In this document: piece after piece, positions 46,785 to 62,262 of the stretch
How positions within the stretch are numbered: the stretch's first letter is position 1
How the letters are laid out: each line of letters starts with the position of its first letter
NCBI RefSeq assembly: GCF_009730595.1
Contig: NZ_CP046276.1
Location: forward strand, 310,001 to 374,000
DNA: 64,000 nt
Origin: Spiroplasma tabanidicola
Lineage (GTDB): Bacteria; Bacillota_I; Bacilli_A; Mycoplasmatales; Mycoplasmataceae
Direction: 5' to 3'
Made by a program: the position numbers and the translations under genes
The notes under the pieces: model-generated
The model's input: only the letters and a program-made list of their open reading frames with translations
Databases searched by the model: none
Told to the model about the DNA's origin: nothing

Positions 46785-47479
46785 ATGAATAAAATAGTAA
46801 GAAAATATTGATTTAGTATTTTTTTGTGTTTAATTTTAAAAGTTATAGGTGATATTGTTTTTATATCTTCTAGTTATTTTTTATCTAAAATAGTTAATCA
46901 GATTATAAATGAAAATAAGCATTTTTTAGATTTGTGATTTTTAGTGCTGCTAACAGCGATAGGAAACATTTCCGGAATAGTTCTAGAATATTTTAGTAAT
47001 TTGATAGCAACAAAATTATCTTATAAATTAAAAATGAAACTTATAGAAATTGTTGCTTTAAAAATTAATTCTTTATCAGATTTAGAATATGAAAAATATA
47101 AAAAAGGTGAGTATTTATCTTGATTTAAAAATGATGTTCCGAATGTATATTATGCAATAAGTGCAAAATTAATATTTCTATGATCGGATTTAATATTATG
47201 TACTATTTCTCTTATATTAATTTATATTTTTGTAAGTTACATATTACTTTTGTTAACTTTAATAGGAGGAGTTTTAATTTTATTAGTTCCTATATTTTTG
47301 GGTAATATAAAATCAAAAATACAATCAAAGCTATCAAAAGAACAAGGTGTATTTACGCAAGGAATAGAAAAATATTATAAATGGATATACTGAATTTTCT
47401 TTTAGAAATAAAAAAAGTTTGTTTAAAAAATTAATTACAAATTATTCTATTAGAATAGAAAAATATAAGTTAAAAAAAT
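46785..47479 (+). pseudogene. 5' part of an ABC exporter gene, frameshifted and cut by an insertion
   Basis: ATG 46785 opens an exporter membrane domain (MNKIVRKYWFSIFLCLILKV, about six helices). The frame ends at TAG 47403-47405. A one-base shift near 47,375 restores NGYTEFSFRNKKS, matching INGYKELSYRNKK of the intact paralogue at 51,600. The restored frame runs to the left end of the insertion sequence at 47479. Removing the insertion and one AAT duplicate joins it in frame with 50134 onward. Confidence 0.9.
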
Positions 47480-47492
47480 AGAATAGACAACC

Positions 47493-48390
47493 TTAAAGAG
47501 ACCAAAAAATCTTATGATATTTGGTTTTTTTTTTATTATATAAATAATTTTGTAAATTATTTCTTTTAATAATGAATTCATCAAAAAATAATTTAAACTC
47601 TATGATGCTTTTAAATTCATTTCCATATTCTGCAAAAAAACAGTCTTTGTATCAACCGTTTAAAGCTTCTGTTGGTGCGTTATGTTTAAATCCAGCTTCA
47701 GACATTGATAAAACTAAATTTGGACATAAATTAATTAAATCTTTTACCGCATATGATGCATTTGCAATTTTTCGATCAGTTTGAAGTATTGTAAAATCTA
47801 CTTTGTATTTGCTTATAACTTTTATTACCTCTTTAATTGTTTTTACAACAACTTCTGAGTTTTCACTTAAAGAAAAATTATAAGCAATCATATCTCTGTT
47901 ATATCAATTATATGCAAACTCACCAAGTATTTTAACTTTTTTGCCTTTAGTTATAAGGTCTAAATATGAACCGTCCATTCCTATTTTTTGTAAATTATAT
48001 TGAGTACTAAAATCTTTCTTAATTAGATCAGGTACAACATTACCTCTTTGGAGATTTTGTCTTTTATGTTCTCTATTAATTTTTTCTAATTTTACTAACT
48101 TTTTATTTCGTAATTCATTTATTATCTTATAACTAATATTAACTTTAAACTCATCACTTATTCAAGAACTAACATTTCTAGAACCGGATGAACCATTTTT
48201 TTCTGTAAACTTATTTATTAAAACAACTGCTTGATCATTATATTTTCTTTTTAATTCTATTGTTTAATTTTTTAAAAGCTCTTCTTTATTTTTATTTTTT
48301 CATTTAGCATAATTAGAAAAATTAACAAATAGAGCTTTACATTTATCTTTCATATTTAGTTCACAAGACTCATCAAAATAAATCACATTA
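47493..48390 (-). pseudogene. orfB (DDE transposase) of the outer element, 3' part
   Basis: The frame beginning just left of the inner insertion reads DESCELNMKDKCKALF, then a TAA at 48264-48266, then about 255 more residues. The DDE core is recognisable: GMDGSYLDL (Asp), ILQTDRKIANASY (Asp) and NAPTEALNGWYKDC (Glu). The stop codon and the separated 5' end make it inactive. It ends inside the left inverted repeat. Confidence 0.85.
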
Positions 48391-48427
48391 TAAACTGGGA
48401 AAAATAAATTCTACAGTTTTAAATATT

Positions 48428-48452
48428 AACGCCGGCACTAGCTGGCGTTTTT
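48428..48452. other. GC-rich hairpin at the end of the inner transposase
   Basis: AACGCCGGC and GCTGGCGTT pair across ACTA (one G-U), the most GC-rich spot of the region, followed on the plus strand by T5, so it could stop transcripts entering from the left. Confidence 0.55.
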
Positions 48453-48486
48453 CAATTTAAAACTTTTTGTATTCTTTTGTTATTAT

Positions 48487-48558
48487 ACCAATCTATATAC
48501 CAATCTATATACCAATCTATATACCAATCTATATACCAATCTATATACCAATCTATAT
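48487..48558. repeat. Six tandem copies of a 12-bp unit
   Basis: ACCAATCTATAT repeated six times without change; on the minus strand it codes IDWY six times inside the inner transposase. Confidence 0.95.
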
Positions 48559-49640
48559 GGTTAAAAATTTCTTTGAAGCTCATTTTGCTTGTATTAATAT
48601 GATTTAGATATTCTCCTTTTAAACAACTAAAAAAATATTTAATTTCTCTATTATCTAAGGAATTACCAACTCTGCTCATTGAAGTTTGGCCATTTATCTG
48701 TTTTATTAATCAGTAACCTCGTTACTTGAATATTGAGAACCATGATCTGAATGTAGAATAAAATTAGATTTATTAATTTTAGTTATAGTATCAACAACCA
48801 ACTGTGTATTATTATTTTTTGACAAGCATCATGACTCAATTTTTTTAGTTTTATGACTAATAGCAGCAGATATATAATAATAATTTCCTTCTACCAAACC
48901 AGGTATGTAAGATACATCAGTCGCAATAATATTATCAATACTTGGATTATAATTGCGTTTAACTAAGTCTTTATATTTAGCATAAATATTTTTCGATTCT
49001 TGTTTTCTTTTTTTAATTCTTGTTTTGATTATAAAACCTCATCTTTTTAAATAATGTCTTAAAGTTCTATCGCATATGAATATTTTTTCTTTTTCTAATA
49101 ATATACTTATTTTTCTACTGCCATAGATAAACTTAGACTCACTTAAGATTTTCACAACTTCACTTTTTAAATTATTGTATTTATAACTTCTAATTTTTTG
49201 CTTTTTATAAAAAGTTGTTCTATGCATTGATATAATTCTTGCCTTCGTACTAATATTTAATGATTTTATTTTATTAATAGATTCTTTCTCTCTTTTATCT
49301 CTTTGGTTTTTTATTCAATCTTCGATTATTTCACGTTTTTGTTCTTCTGTTAGATCATTAATTATTCCAGGAATATCAGAATCATCTCTCTTTTTATGTC
49401 TTCCTGAACCTTTTTTTCTTTTTAAACTTTTCATACCATAATTATCTAATAAATAAGCTTTTTGTTTTATTCTTTTTTGAAGATTTTGCGAAAATTTAAT
49501 TTCTTTTAATTTAAATTTACGATACTCTTGTTCAGCTATTTTAATTCCTTTTGTTTTATATATTCCGATTATCTCAGCTCATTGTTCTATTGTTAAATTT
49601 TTTGACATAAAAAATTCTACACCTCTTTCTTGTGTAGAAT

Positions 49641-50054
49641 TTATTTTTCCCTGTTTATTATATGCATTGTTTTTCAGGCCTTCTTACTTGTTTGTATCTT
49701 CATTTGAGTTTTCGATAAATTCATGAAAGAAGGCATGCGCTTTTCCAAAAACTCAATTTTTGCCTTATCTTTTAACTTTTCTTTTTTAAGCTTGTTTAAT
49801 TCTTTTTCAAGTTTCTTATTTTCATCTTTAAGCAATTTATTTTCAATGTCTTTTTTCATATAAATATTAACCTCACAAGGCGAATAATTTAATTCGCTTT
49901 CTAATTCGTTAATATTATATCTTTTTACTCATTGTTTTATTTGAACTTGACCACTTTTTAAGTTTAATTCTTCAGAGATTTTAGAAGTTTTTTCTCCAGC
50001 TAAAAACTTTTTAATAGCAATTAATTTTATCTTTTTATCTATTACTTTTGGCAT
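49641..50054 (-). pseudogene. orfA (helix-turn-helix) of the outer element
   Basis: ATG 50054 opens MPKVIDKKIKLIAIKKFL, a helix-turn-helix that binds element ends, followed by a Lys/Glu leucine-zipper coiled coil (MKKDIENKLLKDENKKLEKE). The reading frame now runs through the TTA duplicate into the inner element and ends at TAA 49641-49643. In the intact element it would overlap orfB, which lies one frame back, as in other IS3 members. Confidence 0.8.
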
Positions 50055-50130
50055 ATAAAAACAACCTTTCTATAGAAACTTATTATTTAAACTTTTTTAA
50101 ATAATTGGTCTCTTTAAGGTTGTCTATTCT

Positions 50131-51023
50131 AATATAATTTTGGATTTTTATTTAATTGTTTAATAGGTATTTTTCAAATGATACTACAGCAAAGTTGAAT
50201 AATAGTAGCGGCTGTATTATACTTTTTAGATTTAGTAAAGCCCGGTGCGCTATTACTAACAACAGCTTGTTCTTCTTTCTTTTTGTCTGGTTTTGTAGGT
50301 TTGGTTAGTGATGTTTCAAATGCAAAAGAAGGAAAAAGTTTAATAAAAAAATACAAAATAGAGAATAAAATAAAAAAAGAAATATTTAAAAATATTGAGT
50401 TTAATGAATTAGAAATAAGAAATTTAAATTACTCTGTTGAAAATAAACAAATATTTAAAAATTTTAATTTAGAATTTAAGAAAAATAAGAAATACTTAAT
50501 AGTTAGGGAATCTGGAAAAGGTAAATCAACTTTATTTAGAATAATATTTGGTATCATAAAAAATCATTCAGGAGATATTTTTATAAATAAAAATATAAAT
50601 TATAAAGATTTAAGTGATAAACAAATTAAAAAAATTATTTCATATTTACCTCAACAACCAACAGTTTTTGATGACTCAATTAGAAATAATGTAAATTTAT
50701 GAGATAAAAGTATTAAAGATGAAAAGATATTAGAGGCATTAAAAAAAGTTAATTTATTAAATATTGATAAACAAAGTTTAGATACTAAAATAAATCCAGA
50801 CAATAAAAACTTTTCGGGTGGGGAAGTTCAAAGAATGGCAATCGCAAGAGCTCTTGTTGAAGATAAACAAATTATAATAATGTATGAGATAACTGCAAGT
50901 TTAGATAAATTTAATAGAAAGAGCATTGAAGATCTTGTAGGTGATTTGAATAAAACTGTTTTATATATTTCTCATACAACAGAACTAGATAATAAAAATT
51001 TTGATTATGTAATAAAGTTATAA
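50131..51023 (+). pseudogene. 3' part of the interrupted ABC exporter gene
   Basis: Continues the membrane domain (FGFLFNCLIGIF...) and adds the ATPase domain. The nucleotide-binding site is eroded: Walker A reads VRESGKGKST (the first Gly is Arg) and Walker B reads IIIMYEITASLD (the Asp before the catalytic Glu is Tyr), while FSGGEVQR and the switch SHT remain. Together with the frameshift and the insertion, this shows a decayed gene. The stop TAA lies 11 bases before the paralogue's ATG. Confidence 0.88.
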
Positions 51024-51034
51024 GAAAGGAAATT

Positions 51035-52618
51035 ATGAAAAAATATTTTAAAAAGATATGAGTATATTATGTTTTTTATACATTAATAGATATATTGAGT
51101 AGTTTAATCTTGAACTATAGTTTTTTAGCAGTAGGTCAAATACTTGACGATGCGATGAATAAAGATAAAAACAAGTTAATTATTCATACAATAGTGATTA
51201 TTGTAGGACTTAGCATAAGTCAAATTTTATCTAGTTTTAACAGTTTTATTATTGTTGCTAGAGCAAACAAAAAGTTAATTATCGAAATTAGAAAAACAAT
51301 ATCAGATAAAATTAATTCATTAAGTTTTCAAAACTATAGCGAATATAAAAAAGGTCAGTATATATCTTGATTTACAAATGATGTTGAACTAATTCAATCA
51401 AATGTTTTTGACCCAATTTATAGTATATTTAAAAATACACCATCAATTTTTATAATAGCTTATTCATTTTATTCACTTAATTGAATACTAGGAGTGATAG
51501 CTTTTATTTCTGTGATTGTATCGATAGTTTTACCAATGTTTTTTTACAAAAAAGATGAAAAGTATAATTATCAATATTCCAAAACTTCAGAACAAAATTC
51601 AACTAAGTCTCTATCGTTAATAAATGGTTATAAAGAATTATCATACCGTAATAAAAAAGAAACTTTCAGTAAATTAATTTGTGATATAAACAAACCGATT
51701 GAACTTTTAAAGAGTAAAATAAAATCTTTTGATTATAGTAAAAATTTGATAGGTAGTTTAGTTAGAAATTTATTTAAAATAGCAATCGTTTTAGTGGGAA
51801 TTTACCTATTTTCCATTGGAAAAGCAACAGCTGGTTCTGTTATATCAGCGCCAGTAATAACTTATAATTTAAACAGTTCTGTTTTAAGTTTGGCAAATTC
51901 TTTTATAAAAATTAAAACTGTAAAAAAAATAAAGGAAAAATTTATTTTTGAAAATGCACAAGAAGATAATTATATTCCTAAAAAAATTCGATTTAAAAGT
52001 TTAAAAATTGATAATTCAACATTTTTTATTGAGAAAAGAAAAATTTATAGCAATTTTGAATTAGAAATAAAAATTAATAAAAAATATTTGTTAATAGGTG
52101 AGTCCGGAAAAGGAAAGACAACTTTATTCAAAATAATATTTGGTTTAATAAATAATTATAAAGGAGATATAAAAATAAATAATGAAATAAATTATAAATC
52201 CTTAGATGTAAAAGATATATGAAACTTAATTGCATATATACCACAAGAAAGCATAATATATAATGCATCAGTTAGGGATGATATAAGTTTATTTGATGAT
52301 TCAATTAATGACGAAGAAATTATTGATGTTATGCACAAAGTGAATTTAAAAAAATGATTAAATGAAAATAATCTTAATACTATGTTGGTTAATGATACAA
52401 AAAATTTATCAGGAGGCGAAGTGCAAAAAATTGCTATTGCAAGAGCGTTACTACAAAATAAACCTTTTATGATTATGGATGAAATTACTGCCAGTTTGGA
52501 CAACGAAAACAGATTAAACATTGAAAAAATGGTTGCAAATTTAGATAAAACAGTACTATTTATCTCTCATACAATTGATATAGATAATAATAATTTTGAT
52601 TTAACTATAAGATTATAA
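51035..52618 (+). CDS. ABC exporter, intact paralogue of the broken gene
   Basis: 527 residues: membrane domain (about 1-300) and ATPase domain (about 325-527), with Walker A GESGKGKTT, IPQES Q-loop, LSGGEVQKIAIARAL, Walker B MIMDEITASLD and SHT. Closely related to the broken gene just upstream, so the pair probably formed a heterodimer or tandem duplicate before the insertion. Substrate unknown. AAAGGAAA precedes the ATG. Confidence 0.9.
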
Positions 52619-55332: not shown

Positions 55333-55555
55333 AATAACACCTCAAAATTATTATATCACTTGTGATCAAGTGATTATTTTTTAAGAATTTTATAATAAAA
55401 TGTTGGTAAATATATAAACTTACTATGTATTTTTGTTAAAAAATAAATTATAATCATAAAGATTAAACCTGTTGAAAATTTTTAATATATAAGATAATCA
55501 TTAAATTTACATACCTTTAAAAAATAATAGAATTGAATAGGAGAGAATTATTAAT

Positions 55556-57268
55556 ATGGCAGAAATTAAGTTTATGGCCCTTGGTGGTCAAGACGAAAGA
55601 GGTAAAAATGCCTTTATTGTAAGTGTTGATGGAGACTTATTTGTTTTTGATGCAGGAATTAAATTTCCAGAAAGAAGTATTTTAGGGATTGATGTTGTTA
55701 TTCCTAGTTTTGAATATTTAGAAGCAAATGCAAAAAAAATAAAAGGAATATTTTTATCTAATCCAAGTAGCAATAATGCTGGAGCAATAAGTTATATTTT
55801 AAGAGTAATTGATGTTCCAGTTTATTGTAATGAATTAACTTCAACACTTTTAAAATATAGAAATTTAAAATATAGAATAAAAAATAGAGAAAATAACTTC
55901 AAAATTGTAAATGATAAAGATATTGTCAAATTTGGTAAAAACAGTGTAGAAATTTTTAGAACTACATCAAGTTTTCCTGAAACTTTTGGATTTGCTTTAC
56001 ATACAGAAGATGGAACAATTGTTTATGCAGGAGATTATATAATTGATGGTAATGAACAATCATGATTTTCAACAGATATGAATCACTTAGCAAAAATTGC
56101 AGAAAGAAATGTTTTAGCACTTTTAAGTGACTCAGAATATGCTTCAAGAATTGGATATACAGTTCCAAATCATCGAATTGATAAATATATCGCAACGCCA
56201 ATGAAAGATCTTAAACATCGTTTGGTTTTAGGATTATTTGAAGAAGATGTATTTAAATTATTTGAAATTATCAAACAAGCAAAAGAACAAGGAAGAAAAA
56301 TGGCGATTTATGGTAAAACAATTTCAAAAGTTGTTGAATCAAAAATCATTCAAGATTCTTTAAAAATTTCAAAAGATGACATCATCTCATTAGAAGAGTA
56401 TATGAAATCAACAGATGGAATTTTAGTTTTAACTGGAGCAGGAGATTTATTATATTCTAGATTAGCAAAAATCGCTGCTGGAAATGATGAAGTTATTGAG
56501 TTTTCAGAACAAGATACTATTGTTTTAGCAACTCCTCCAGCAGCAGGGGTTGAAAAACGTCATGCCGAAATTTTAGATGAACTTGCAAGAACAAATGCTA
56601 ATTTAATTGCTTTGAGTGATAAAAATATTTGAGCAATGCGTGCAAGTTATGAAGATATAAAATTAATGACTAGAATTATGAAACCAAAAAGTTTTATACC
56701 AATTAAAGGGTTATACAAAGAATTTTTAAGTGCAGAAAGAGCAGCGCTTGAAGCTGGTGTTAAAAAAGAAAATATTCAATTAATTAATAATGGACAAGTG
56801 TTAAAAATTTCAAAAGACGGAAGACTTGTAATTGCTTCAGAAATGATAAAAACAAGTGATGTTTATGTTGATGGAATTGGAGTTGGAGATATTGGTGCTG
56901 TAGTTTTAAACGAAAGAAAACAACTTGCAACAGATGGAGTTGTAAGTATTGGTGCAAATATTGATGAAAAAACAAAAGACTTAGCTTCATTAATAGATAT
57001 TCAAATGCGTGGAGTTATTTATATTCAAGAAGATAATCCAATTTTTAAATTAATGCAAAAGCAAATTGTGACAATTTTAGAAAAATACAAGATTGAGGCA
57101 AAAACAAAAAACATTCCATATGATTTAAATAATATTAAAAAAGATATTATTTCTAAAATTAGAAGTTCTATAAAACAAGAAACAGGAAAGCAACCAATTG
57201 TATTGGTAGTTGTAAATGAAATTAATGTTAATTCGTTTTATGAGCCTAAAAAGAAGGTAAATAAATAA
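55556..57268 (+). CDS. RNase J homologue with lost catalytic residues
   Basis: 570 residues, full RNase J layout: metallo-beta-lactamase domain with inserted beta-CASP domain and a C-terminal domain. The metal motif THGHEDH reads SNPSSNN (residues 68-74), the later TxSxPD His is Thr (TTSSFPETFG), and the HVSGH motif and VHGEY loop read IWAMR and IKGLY. The metal ligands I can align are gone, so ribonuclease activity is very unlikely. The reading frame is intact, so it may be an RNase J2-like scaffold partner of an active RNase J elsewhere. AGGAGAG precedes the ATG. Confidence 0.9.
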
Positions 57269-57343
57269 ACCAATTTCTCGGTTTATTTTTTTTATTAAGA
57301 ATATAATTTAAATATAATATTTTTTAAATGAACAAAAAGTAAT

Positions 57344-58195
57344 GTGAGTAATCTAAAAAAACTAATATATTTTTTAAGTATTTTAATTTCTTCAACTATA
57401 ACTTCTCAAACAATCTCAGTGCTATTTTTTCAGGAACAATTATAGATAGAAATGAAGAAGCAAAACAAAGTGATATTTGCTATTTTGTTGGAAATATTAA
57501 AAAATATGTTTTAAAAGAATACAAAATTCCAACAAAAGAATCGTTAGTCACTTTATTAAGTGCAAAAGCTAGATTTAAAGTTGTTTTAGAAAATATTGAA
57601 AAAGAAAGCACCATATTTTAGATAAATTATAAATCATTAATCACAAAAATAAAAATACAAATTATGTAAAACAGATTTTTATTTCCTGAAATTAAAAGTA
57701 ATTCTCTTGCCATGAGTAAGATCAAAAATAAATCAATTAATTTAAATTACATAGTTAAAATTAATGAAGTAGATAAAAAATACATTAAAAATTTTTTGAT
57801 GAATTAGTTTATAACGGAGAATTAAAAAAATATAATAATCATGATGATAATCTTAGGCTTGTTTTTAATAATATATTAAGTGAAACATTAGATGAAAAAG
57901 TATTTAAATTTATATTTAAAACTTATGTTTTAGATTACGCAATATTTCTAGCATTGGTTATAGTGATGATTTTGCACAAGACTATGGAATTAATAACAAC
58001 TTTTTAAATATCTATGGTAAAGATGGTATGAAATTTAGCAATTATAGTTTAATCCCTTTAAATATAGAGCATTTTAATTACACAAGAGATATAAACTTTG
58101 ATTTTGGTAATGTAATAACTTGAACAAGAAAAGAGTCAAAATTAAATAAAAAGATTGATTTAAATGGTTTTGATAAAGATAGAATTATAAATTAA
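57344..58195 (+). pseudogene. Decayed gene with signal-like N-terminus
   Basis: A GTG/ATG region opens a hydrophobic N-terminus (SNLKKLIYFLSILISS). Continuing it needs a shift near 57,430, passage of stops at 57619-57621 and 57667-57669, and shifts near 57,797 and 57,945. The joined protein would be about 280 residues, ending DKDRIIN. Probably an exported or lipoprotein-like gene. No family recognised. Confidence 0.65.
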
Positions 58196-58274
58196 AAATT
58201 TAATTTGATTTACTTAAATGATTTTAAAAATTAACCAATACTTCTGAAGGGTTTTTAAAATATTTACTAATTCA

Positions 58275-58574
58275 ATGTTTAAAGAGTTTTTTGCAAACTT
58301 CAGTAATTTATTTTTACAAGAACTAATAAATTTTTATATAACAAATATAACTATAAAAGCAAATAAAAATATTTATCTATATCCTAATAGTCAATTGAAG
58401 TTGGATAATAAATCTAGAACAAATTATAAAGATTTTTTTCTAGCTAATAAACATAAAAATGTTTTAAATAATGTAGAGTTTAATTTATTATTTAGTGCGA
58501 ATCAAAAGAGTACAAATTTTTTGAATAGTTTAAACGAAATAAGATTTTATATAAGTTATGAAGATTGAAATTAG
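58275..58574 (+). pseudogene. Short leftover reading frame
   Basis: About 99 residues (MFKEFFANFSNLFLQELINFY...) ending at TAG 58572-58574 after one TGA Trp. No ribosome site and stops close upstream in frame. It lies between two decayed genes and is probably part of the same remnant. Confidence 0.45.
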
Positions 58575-58590
58575 AAAGAAAGCTGATAAT

Positions 58591-59140
58591 ATGAATAGTA
58601 AAAAAAATAAAAAAAAAGTTAGTTTCAAAATTAGTGATAAAATTTAGAATAAATTATAATTATAGTATTTTAGGTGTTTTTAATTTAATTAGTTTATTAA
58701 TATTATTTTTAATGCTATATATTCCATTATAAGATAAAATATATATAAAATTTTTTGCAGTTGGTGGTTATTTTTTTTATCATTGATAAAAGTTTTATTT
58801 TTATATCTTTATTTACTCATAAATATTATTTTAAAACAAAGCTAATTGTTTATATTTGTTTTACTGTTTTTCTTTTGCATTTTGCAGTTTTTGTTTAAAA
58901 AAAGATAATTTCAAATAGTATGGAATGAAGAGAATTTTATGTGTGAGATTTTGAAATCAAAAGTTAACATTATCTGTAGTAGTGTTTACTATCTTTATTT
59001 CTTCAATTTTAACGGTTTTAATTTGTTGTTTTTTGTATTTCAATTATAAGCTTATTAGTCCGTATATGATTGTCTTTTTTAGTGCAGAAAAACAGTTGAA
59101 TCAATTCAAATTAACAAATAAAATAATGAAGATTATTTAA
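58591..59140 (+). pseudogene. Decayed membrane protein gene
   Basis: ATG 58591 opens MNSKKNKKKVSF and stops soon; other frames show hydrophobic segments (YSILGVFNLISLLILFLML and VVVFTIFISSILTVLICCF) up to TAA 59138-59140. At least three frame disruptions. Remnant of a membrane protein. Confidence 0.55.
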
Positions 59141-59160
59141 AAATAAAAAAATAAAAAATG

Positions 59161-59196
59161 AAATTGATATTTTTATCAATTTTTAGTCTTTTTTAT
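59161..59196 (+). terminator. Possible terminator before ftsK
   Basis: AAATTGATA pairs with TATCAATTT over TTTT, with T-rich sequence after it. Confidence 0.55.
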
Positions 59197-59262
59197 AAAT
59201 TATGGTAAAATTCTATAAAATATATTAAAATAAACAAGTAAGGGCAAATATAGGGTGATTAT

Positions 59263-62262
59263 ATGAATGATTATGGGCGTAATCATATTACACTAGATGC
59301 TAACGATGATGATCGTACAAGAGCACTAGATATCCAAAGAAAACAAAGAAGACCTGATTCAATTGCATGAATTATTTCAGCGCTACTTTTATTTTTCATA
59401 AATGTTGTAGCATTAGGAAGAATAACGGTGATTGGACAATTGTTAGATGATTTAGTCTTCACTTTTTTGTTTGGTTGATTTAAGTATTTTTTATATTTAT
59501 TGTTTTTTATAATCGATTTTGCCATATACTTTGGTATTAAATTTAAACCCAAAAAGAGATTTTTAGCCATGATTTTTGTAACTTGAATAATGTGTTGTTG
59601 AGTAATTTCATCAATATTGTTTATTGTTGCGCATAATTTAAAGTCAGATGATCTTGTAATTCCTAATTATTGAAGTAAAGATATTTTTTTGAACTCTCTT
59701 AAATCTTATCTAACTCAGTGAAAAACTCATTCATTCTTTGGTTCAACTCAAAATTTACTAGTTTCAAGTAAAGATAGTTATTTTACAACATATGCTGGGG
59801 GAGGATTTATTGGTGCATTTTTATCAGGAATATCAAGCTATTTAACTATTTATGGTTCATTAATTTTAGCTTTAGTATTTTTCTTTATAAATATGGTTTG
59901 AATTTTTACAGGAGATCCATTTTATTTGTTTAAACCAAAAAACAAAAGAAGAGGAAAAAGATTAAGAATTTTATCGTTAAAAAGTAAAGATAGTAATGGA
60001 AATATAAATAAAATAAAAAGACCTAAAAGAAATAGCATTTTTAGTGTGATTAATTTAGATGGTGAAAGAACATTAGATGAGCGTGATATTTTAGCATCAG
60101 TAAAAGAGTCTGATATTACAATTGAGATGCCTAGTTATATAAAAAATAGTGATCATTATATTTATAGAAATGTTGATGAAAACTTTTATAATGAAGATTA
60201 TGTAAGTAGTCCACAAGCAAGTTATGATCCAATTTTTGATTTTGACCAAAATATTTTAGGAAGTTCAAGTAAAGGTTATTTGCAAGTTCAAGATAATTAC
60301 AATAACTTAGCAGAACAACAAAATTTTCAACAATATCAAAATTTTAATAATCAAAATAATTACAATTATCAACAATCTTATCAGCAAACTCCAAAATTTA
60401 TGAATCAATATCAAGATATGGGATATACTAATAATCAATTTACCGGAAATGATAACTCATTATTTGCAAACAGTCAAATAGAAGCAAAAGAAAATTTTAT
60501 CGAAGCACAAGAAGATGTAAGAAAAGCATTTGAAAGACAAACAAGTATAACTCCCCATGGTTTTAATGGAAAAACTCAAGAGTTTTTAAGTGCAATGAAA
60601 AAAGAAAAACTAGAAAAAGAAGGTCAAGTTCAAAGTACATTAGACCAATTTTTAGTAAAAGATAAAGTGTATAAAAACGAAGTTGAAACAAATGCCTTTA
60701 GTGAAGAATATGTTTCTCCAATGGAAAATATAGTTAAAACAAATTTTCATGGTGACTATGGTTATTCAAGACAAAATAACTCTTCAAATACAATCGAATT
60801 AGATACAAATAAAGCAATCGAAAAAACTGTTTTTGTAAATTTAGGGTATCAACTTCCCTCAATCGAGTTATTAAACGTTGATGAAAATAGTAGACATGAA
60901 TATGAAAAACTAAAAGCACAAGCGCAATTAAAAGAAAATTCAATAAATAATACCTTTAGAGAATTTAATGTTGATGCTAAAGTTGTGGATAAAAATATTG
61001 GTCCAACTGTGACAAAATTCGAAGTACAACCTGGACCAAGAACTAAAGTTAATAATGTAACTAGTTTAGAAAATGATTTAAAATTAAGTTTAGCAACTCA
61101 AAATATCAGAATTGAAGCACCTATCCCAGGTAAAACTTTAGTAGGTATTGAAGTGCCTAATGATACTTCAATGGTTGTTCCTTTACGTAGTGTTATAGAA
61201 AAAGCACCATTAACAAAAATAAGTTCTAAACTATTATTTGCTATTGGTAAAACAGTCTCTGGAGAATTATTGTTTGGAGAATTAGATAAAGCTCCCCACT
61301 TGTTAGTTGCTGGATCAACAGGTAGTGGTAAATCGGTTATGATTAATGGAATTATTACATCAATCTTATTAAGAGCTAAACCTCATGAAGTTAAATTACT
61401 TTTAATCGATCCTAAAAAAGTAGAATTATCTATTTATTCATCAATTCCACATTTACTTGCACCGGTTATTAGTGATATGAATTTAGCGAATAGTGCATTA
61501 AAAAAAGTAATTAATGAAATGGAACGTAGATATGCTTTGATGCAATCTACTAAAACAAAAAATATCGAAACTTATAACGCAACTGTTAAAGATCCTGCAA
61601 AAAAATTACCATTCTATGTTGTTGTGATTGATGAGTTAGCTGACTTAATGATGACTGCAAATAAAAAAGATGTTGAAGATTCAATCAAAAGAATTACTCA
61701 AATGGCTAGAGCGGCAGGTATTCATTTAATCGTAGCAACTCAAAGACCATCAACAGATGTTATAACAGGAGTTATTAAATCAAACATCACAACTAGAATC
61801 GGATTTTCAGTTGCAAGTACAATTGATTCAAGAACTATTTTAGATTCATCTGGTGCTGAAAAATTAATTGGAAAAGGGGACTTATTATATCATCCACCAA
61901 ATGCAAATAATGTTACAAGAGCACAAGGTTCATTTGTAAGCGATGATGAAATTAAAAGAATTGTTGATCATTGTTCAAGACAACAAAATCAAATGTTTGA
62001 AGAAGAATTTATGGTTCAAGAAAATGAAAGTTATGAACCTTCTGGAGGTTCAAGACAAAAAGACCCATTATTTGAAGAAATAAAACAATATGTTATAAGA
62101 GAACAAAAAGCATCAACCAGTTTAATTCAAAGAAAATTTTCAATCGGTTATGGAAGAGCTGCAAGAATAATTGATGAACTTGAAGAAAATGGTGTAATAG
62201 GACCAGCAAAAAACAACTCAAAACCAAGGGATGTTTATATTAAAAATGGAGACTTTTATTAA
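59263..62262 (+). CDS. ftsK: DNA translocase FtsK/SpoIIIE
   Basis: 999 residues. N-terminal domain with four or so membrane helices (about residues 30-215), then a basic stretch, a Gln/Asn-rich low-complexity linker (about residues 340-400), the alpha domain, and the RecA-like motor with Walker A AGSTGSGKS (about residue 685) and Walker B VVIDELADLMM. The gamma winged-helix domain (QRKFSIGYGRAARIIDELEENG) is at the end. It pumps DNA at the division septum. The start is ATG 59263 with AGGGTG upstream; all upstream TGA codons are Trp. Confidence 0.96.

Follow-up and report, generated by a model that had tools for sequence, protein, structure and literature searches.

Why would a bacterium keep a full-length ribonuclease J whose catalytic metal site has been replaced, and to which RNase J lineage does such a protein belong? 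Both questions are raised by a gene in the window, i.e., the whole 64,000-nt stretch of Spiroplasma tabanidicola DNA analyzed here, taken from a complete genome of 1,284,335 bp in which TGA is read as Trp. In a scan of named genomes, those nearest to it were Spiroplasma, Mesoplasma, and Williamsoniiplasma. The gene forms a single frame from an ATG at 55556 to a stop at 57268, exactly where the original prediction had placed it, and its translation is 570 aa long. This frame needs code 4 (TGA = Trp): its two TGA codons encode Trp170 and Trp359, and under code 11 it falls apart into stretches of 169, 184, and 210 aa.

Identity and genomic neighborhood of the protein

The gene and its surroundings comprise the following features:

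55540..55545, + strand: GGAGAG, probable ribosome-binding site, 10 nt 5′ of the ATG (direct sequence reading)
55556..57268, + strand: RNase J2 (rnjB) ortholog without catalytic metal site, 570 aa, code 4 (translation, TIGR00649, tree)
56903..57223, + strand: C-terminal domain RNase_J_C, residues 450–556, kept (Pfam PF17770, 62.5 bits)
59263..62262, + strand: ftsK/spoIIIE, conserved downstream neighbor and synteny marker outside the J2 protein (Pfam, linkage)

The TIGR00649 profile covers the whole protein (residues 4–553 against profile positions 1–545 of 546; 409 bits, E 2.6e-122), Pfam matches are to RNase_J_C and RNase_J_b_CASP, and HMM, Pfam, and fold evidence together place a metallo-β-lactamase, a β-CASP, and an RNase J C-terminal domain in one chain. 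An AlphaFold2 model (pLDDT 84.5, pTM 0.73), poor only at loop 441–447, matched Staphylococcus epidermidis J2 (VIA; Z 47–49, 2.1–2.4 Å over ~430 residues) and full-length Bacillus subtilis J1 (Z 44.7, 536 residues), and its top Foldseek match was PDB 9a5v, whose title denotes an RNJ2-RNJ1 integrative model from crosslinking MS. Chains of the INTS11 and CPSF73 type also appeared in the fold search (Z 28–29), but the best sequence and fold matches are bacterial RNase J, which sets the protein outside the eukaryotic CPSF/Integrator family. The prediction of a full-length RNase J homolog in an open 570-residue frame is thus borne out by the code-4 frame, the TIGR00649 profile, and the AlphaFold2 model.

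Three lines of evidence identify this protein (hereafter window J2) as the RNase J2 (rnjB) ortholog: the tree, the nearest solved structure, and linkage to ftsK/spoIIIE. With active-site columns removed, the J2s of the order formed one clade (SH-aLRT 99; 99/99 in the careful tree) adjoining the J2s of sister families, with all J1s, including those of B. subtilis and S. epidermidis, across a supported branch (99). The best PDB sequence match of window J2 was S. epidermidis RNase J2 (313 bits, vs 284 bits for B. subtilis J1), and that of the active paralog encoded in the same genome was a J1 (590 bits). The ftsK gene starts 2.0 kb downstream of J2 on the same strand, and this linkage (downstream, same strand, ≤5 kb) was present in 21 of the 37 genomes tested, the present one included; 11 of the 21 lie outside the order. 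We take the rnjB-spoIIIE neighborhood of B. subtilis to be the same. Tree, PDB matches, and linkage also rule out a separate, recent J1 duplicate. The original prediction had contrasted the protein with typical RNase J2; it is itself an RNase J2 by lineage, although, to judge from its residues, not of the J2 catalytic type.

Between J2 and ftsK (57269–59262, ~2 kb), the sole ORF is 118 aa long and has no Pfam match, and searches of the J2 flanks, this interval included, found no RNA families (Rfam) and no tRNA. Elsewhere in the window, at 46785–52618, the frames of ABC transporter genes are broken or shortened, and the opposite strand carries IS3-like transposase frames at 48706–50054.

Active site, phosphate pocket, and RNA cleft

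We used B. subtilis J1 numbering, in which the seven metal ligands are H74, H76, D78, H79, H142, D164, and H390 (PMC5383250). In the alignment, six of the seven are replaced in window J2: H74N, H76S, D78N, H79N, H142S, and H390K, i.e., N69, S71, N73, N74, S138, and K384 in its own numbering. Of the active-nuclease signature (HxHxDH plus His142, Asp164, and His390), one ligand in seven is therefore present, and the initial reading that all visible metal ligands had been replaced was slightly too strong, since D164 is kept as D160. The other His motifs are changed, as had been noticed: the HTSGH segment of the 5′-phosphate pocket has become WAMRA, and HGEY has become KGLY. The altered positions, read from the alignment, are:

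55757..55777, + strand: SNPSSNN, residues 68–74, replacing (T/S)HGHEDH; H74, H76, D78, and H79 lost
55967..55969, + strand: Ser138, replacing metal ligand His142
56033..56035, + strand: Asp160 (“AGDY”), equivalent to Asp164 of B. subtilis J1, sole surviving metal ligand
56240..56248, + strand: Glu229-Glu230-Asp231, replacing Ala232-Ser233-Asn234; acidic cluster in the RNA cleft
56438..56446, + strand: Ala295-Gly296-Asp297, replacing Ser300-Gln301-Gly302
56627..56647, + strand: IWAMRAS, residues 358–364, replacing the 5′-phosphate pocket (H364, S366, and H368 of B. subtilis J1); includes TGA-encoded Trp359
56705..56707, + strand: Lys384, replacing metal ligand His390

Window J2 resembles the RNase J2s of Bacilli (S. 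epidermidis 6K6W, S. aureus, B. subtilis) in tree lineage, three-domain fold, an active J1 paralog, ftsK/spoIIIE linkage, and an eroded HxHxDH motif. However, the first two His, at a minimum, survive in known J2s, as His142 usually does, and S. epidermidis J2, with HGHEHA, holds one Mn ion and has measurable activity, whereas in window J2 Asp164 alone is left, the 5′-phosphate pocket is gone, and acidic residues line the cleft. The residues of the one-metal site (two N-terminal His and His142) are likewise absent, their places being taken by N69, S71, and S138. The claim that the loss goes beyond that of typical RNase J2 accordingly stands against S. epidermidis J2, which keeps HxHxHA and one metal (PMC7864078), with the loss being near-complete rather than complete because Asp164 stays. 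Window J2 is also a full-length homolog of RNase J1 (RnjA), with ~25–30% identity and the same fold, but it differs from J1 in having lost the seven-ligand site and phosphate pocket that are intact there, and lies on the opposite side of the tree.

The acidic replacements bear on the earlier idea that the protein positions RNA. In Mycobacterium tuberculosis RNase J, Ser240 touches an RNA phosphate (PMC10119312), and from the numbering we infer that the Ser233 column, beside A232, would be its equivalent. Since phosphate-contacting residues have been replaced by acidic ones, RNA positioning in the protein's own, former cleft is disfavored, and this acidic cleft probably no longer holds RNA.

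The original prediction had also proposed looking for an active RNase J in the genome, and there is one: an intact J1 (L001, G000:C1:1040443-1042077) with seven of seven ligands and intact motifs, whose frame also requires code 4. A homolog of RNase Y is encoded as well (434 bits, slightly below the family cut-off). In this active J1 (“DGKDMTGKASN”), as in those of the order, the C-terminal-domain motif DGxGxGDIG is lost, and the dead J2 retains it; we considered this as a reciprocal loss of a dimer motif, but J1s of sister families are changed alike, so that it is not specific.

Distribution and selection across Mycoplasmatales

Two full-length RNase Js were found in 60 of 60 family genomes, spanning 12 genera. 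The second copy was degenerate in all 60 (every sequence read), and the first was intact in all 35 that were read, the remaining 25 being assessed by HMM score alone. Identical losses in 20/20 genomes of the genus and 60/60 of the family exclude chance loss, and the family-wide presence of a dead J2 also rules out a strain-specific, one-off event.

For the order as a whole, we compiled 99 J2s, i.e., the 60 from the family and 39 second copies from other families, with one gene counted twice (L097 = L105). At most two ligands remained in 98 of these 99 sequences (none in 14, one in 75, two in 9, and four in 1), whereas all seven were present in 71/71 J1s; copies were sorted into first and second by their ligands, and the tree built without ligand columns confirmed this split on a sample. 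Asp164 was retained in 81/99 J2s. The A232 column was D/E in 91/99 J2s and the G302 column in 84/99, compared to 0/71 J1s for each, and the residues replacing lost ligands varied between families. The degenerate J2 L097 (G070; GNAITEN) falls in the same clade as window J2.

In other families of a class-wide sample, second copies mostly retained 4–6 ligands, so that the loss is graded: partial in sister families and near-total in the order. The sole exception within the order, L128 (G108, family f11; HHQQ..H..D), retains H74, H76, H142, and D164. It comes from an assembly 75% complete with 4% contamination and may represent an intermediate with one metal site. L128 nests inside the clade of its own family (support 100/99), among fully degenerate J2s, which suggests several independent losses. 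Minimum parsimony, however, requires only 2 changes, including a regain in L128, and is shorter than several losses; without such a regain, several independent losses follow. Copy number also varied: a genome of family f9 (G083) has two dead J2 copies with near-equal scores (G083:C1:629593-631251 and 1338882-1340540), and three RNase Js were seen in genomes of family f20 of the class, e.g., G236, where L173, L174, and L175 comprise a J1, a J2, and a third intact copy outside the other J1s.

Selection, which the original prediction had proposed to measure, was evaluated through Nei-Gojobori dN/dS for the 103 within-genus species pairs whose dS was <1.2; because dS is partly saturated, the close pairs alone are firm. 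In these, J2 dN/dS was 0.011–0.08 (closest pair 0.011), indicating strong purifying selection. Median dN/dS over the 103 pairs was 0.14 for J2 and 0.083 for J1, and median pairwise dN, 0.14 for J2 and 0.09 for J1, shows the faster evolution of J2. Across 20 species, 295 of 570 J2 sites were invariant. The dead segments of the cleft are conserved rather than drifting, with variability of 0.089 for residues 60–80 and 0.068 for residues 355–372 against a protein mean of 0.185, and residues 447–461, in the region of the C-terminal domain, are among the most conserved of J2 within the genus. Overall, the C-terminal and β-CASP domains of J2 were ~2.2–2.4× more variable than their J1 counterparts. 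A strongly conserved pseudoenzyme, as originally proposed, is supported by both the dead J2 of all 60 family genomes and the purifying selection.

Probable role beside RNase J1 and alternative readings

Given the loss of six ligands in a protein strictly kept in mycoplasmas and their relatives, we consider a structural subunit, not an enzyme, to be its most likely role. Specifically, window J2 would be a pseudonuclease that pairs with the intact J1 and supports J1 assembly, stability, or 5′–3′ exonuclease action, a reading to which we give a probability of about three in four. As judged from its residues, it would be unable to hold two catalytic metals or a 5′-phosphate and would thus not act as a nuclease; the full-length protein would be retained as a subunit with the J1 of the same cell, helping that enzyme to assemble, persist, or degrade RNA 5′–3′. 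Mollicute J2 would then be the endpoint of a known trend in which the scaffold stays and the active site goes. Of what was first proposed, a subunit of the active RNase J is the better half, and a likely one.

Results from relatives are consistent with this subunit role. In S. aureus, mutating the active site of J2 left growth like wild type while J2 deletion was sick, and J2 was proposed to be mainly a structural partner for J1 (PMC3937233). In Enterococcus faecalis, inactive J2 mutants bound J1 like wild type (KD 81–89 vs 74 nM; PMC5383250). Heteromers of J1 and J2 are a known state in relatives, e.g., B. subtilis and E. faecalis (PMC6759994, PMC5383250), one of these papers, citing Mathy et al. 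2010, describes stable J1/J2 heterotetramers whose activity is altered (PMC6759994), and the minimal cell Syn3.0 retains both RnjA and RnjB (PMC4993169). By analogy, J1 and J2 of Spiroplasma presumably bind one another. However, in E. faecalis the weak activity of J2 is itself of importance to pilus production (PMC5383250), and S. epidermidis J2 is mainly a monomer when on its own (PMC7864078), so that results from one relative are not automatically transferable. The faster evolution of J2 and the greater variability of its domains relative to J1 are also not what is expected of a uniformly frozen interface, and count against the subunit model.

J2 could also act apart from J1, as a β-CASP scaffold binding RNA, ribosomes, or proteins, e.g., a hub for RNA-decay proteins. 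The J2 interactomes of Streptococcus mutans include partners besides J1 (PMC6759994), the altered cleft segments are conserved as a new ligand site might be, and the RNase Y homolog is encoded in the genome; still, the sequence indicates no specific alternative partner, J1 and J2 co-occur in every family genome, and heteromers are known in relatives (PMC6759994, PMC5383250), all of which make an independent role improbable. A further proposal, which we put forward tentatively and with low confidence, is that across Mycoplasmatales the former active site of J2 became a conserved acidic pocket and took on another function, controlling the sole RNase J-type 5′–3′ exonuclease of these minimal cells, for example by mimicking or repelling RNA or by binding a basic segment of J1, the ribosome, or another partner.

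A nuclease that persists through residual or metal-independent activity, or through a metal held by D160 and the new acidic cluster, appears very unlikely. The retention of the D160 ligand across most of the order, the conserved acids at E229–D231 and D297, and the ability of S. epidermidis J2 to function with one metal (PMC7864078) would fit such an enzyme, but that metal site consists of H76, H78, H80, H144, and E166 (S. epidermidis numbering), of which window J2 has an acid only at the E166 equivalent. E. faecalis J2 loses its activity when the first two His, both missing here, are mutated (PMC5383250), and replacements that differ from family to family are unlike a catalytic site. As for a decaying pseudogene or an artifact of frame or genetic code, the two TGA codons under code 11 and the faster evolution of J2 might suggest it, but code 4 is valid for the whole group and J1 requires it too, and dN/dS far below 1, the invariant sites, and the presence of the gene in every family genome refute this explanation, to which we assign a negligible probability.

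The active/dead pairing has a counterpart in eukaryotes, where INTS9 and CPSF100, partners of INTS11 and CPSF73, also combine a β-CASP nuclease with a metal-dead homolog, INTS9 having been termed a pseudoenzyme (PMC7980224). These families are distant, with different C-terminal domains and a function in 3′-end processing instead of 5′–3′ decay, so that the likeness is a parallel only. Closer to hand, MG423 of Mycoplasma genitalium and RnjB (MMSYN1_0257) of JCVI-Syn3.0, the latter compared by description only, are annotated as ribonucleases, and J1 and J2 of Mollicutes are still treated as nucleases (PMC4014445). While weak-site RNase J2s are already known, the literature searched, whose coverage is incomplete, held no description of an order-wide loss combined with an acidic cleft, making the novelty of this combination provisional.

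Whether J2 serves as an enzyme or a scaffold is still debated: S. aureus can do without the J2 active site, and E. faecalis cannot. Mycoplasmatales appear to have performed this experiment naturally at the scale of an order, discarding the active site while the protein stayed under strong selection, even in near-minimal genomes, and a structural role of J2 thereby becomes directly testable in a minimal cell. The pair offers a bacterial parallel to the active/dead couples CPSF73/CPSF100 and INTS11/INTS9. It also suggests that mycoplasmas and minimal-cell models are credited with too many nucleases where these proteins are annotated as “ribonuclease J.”
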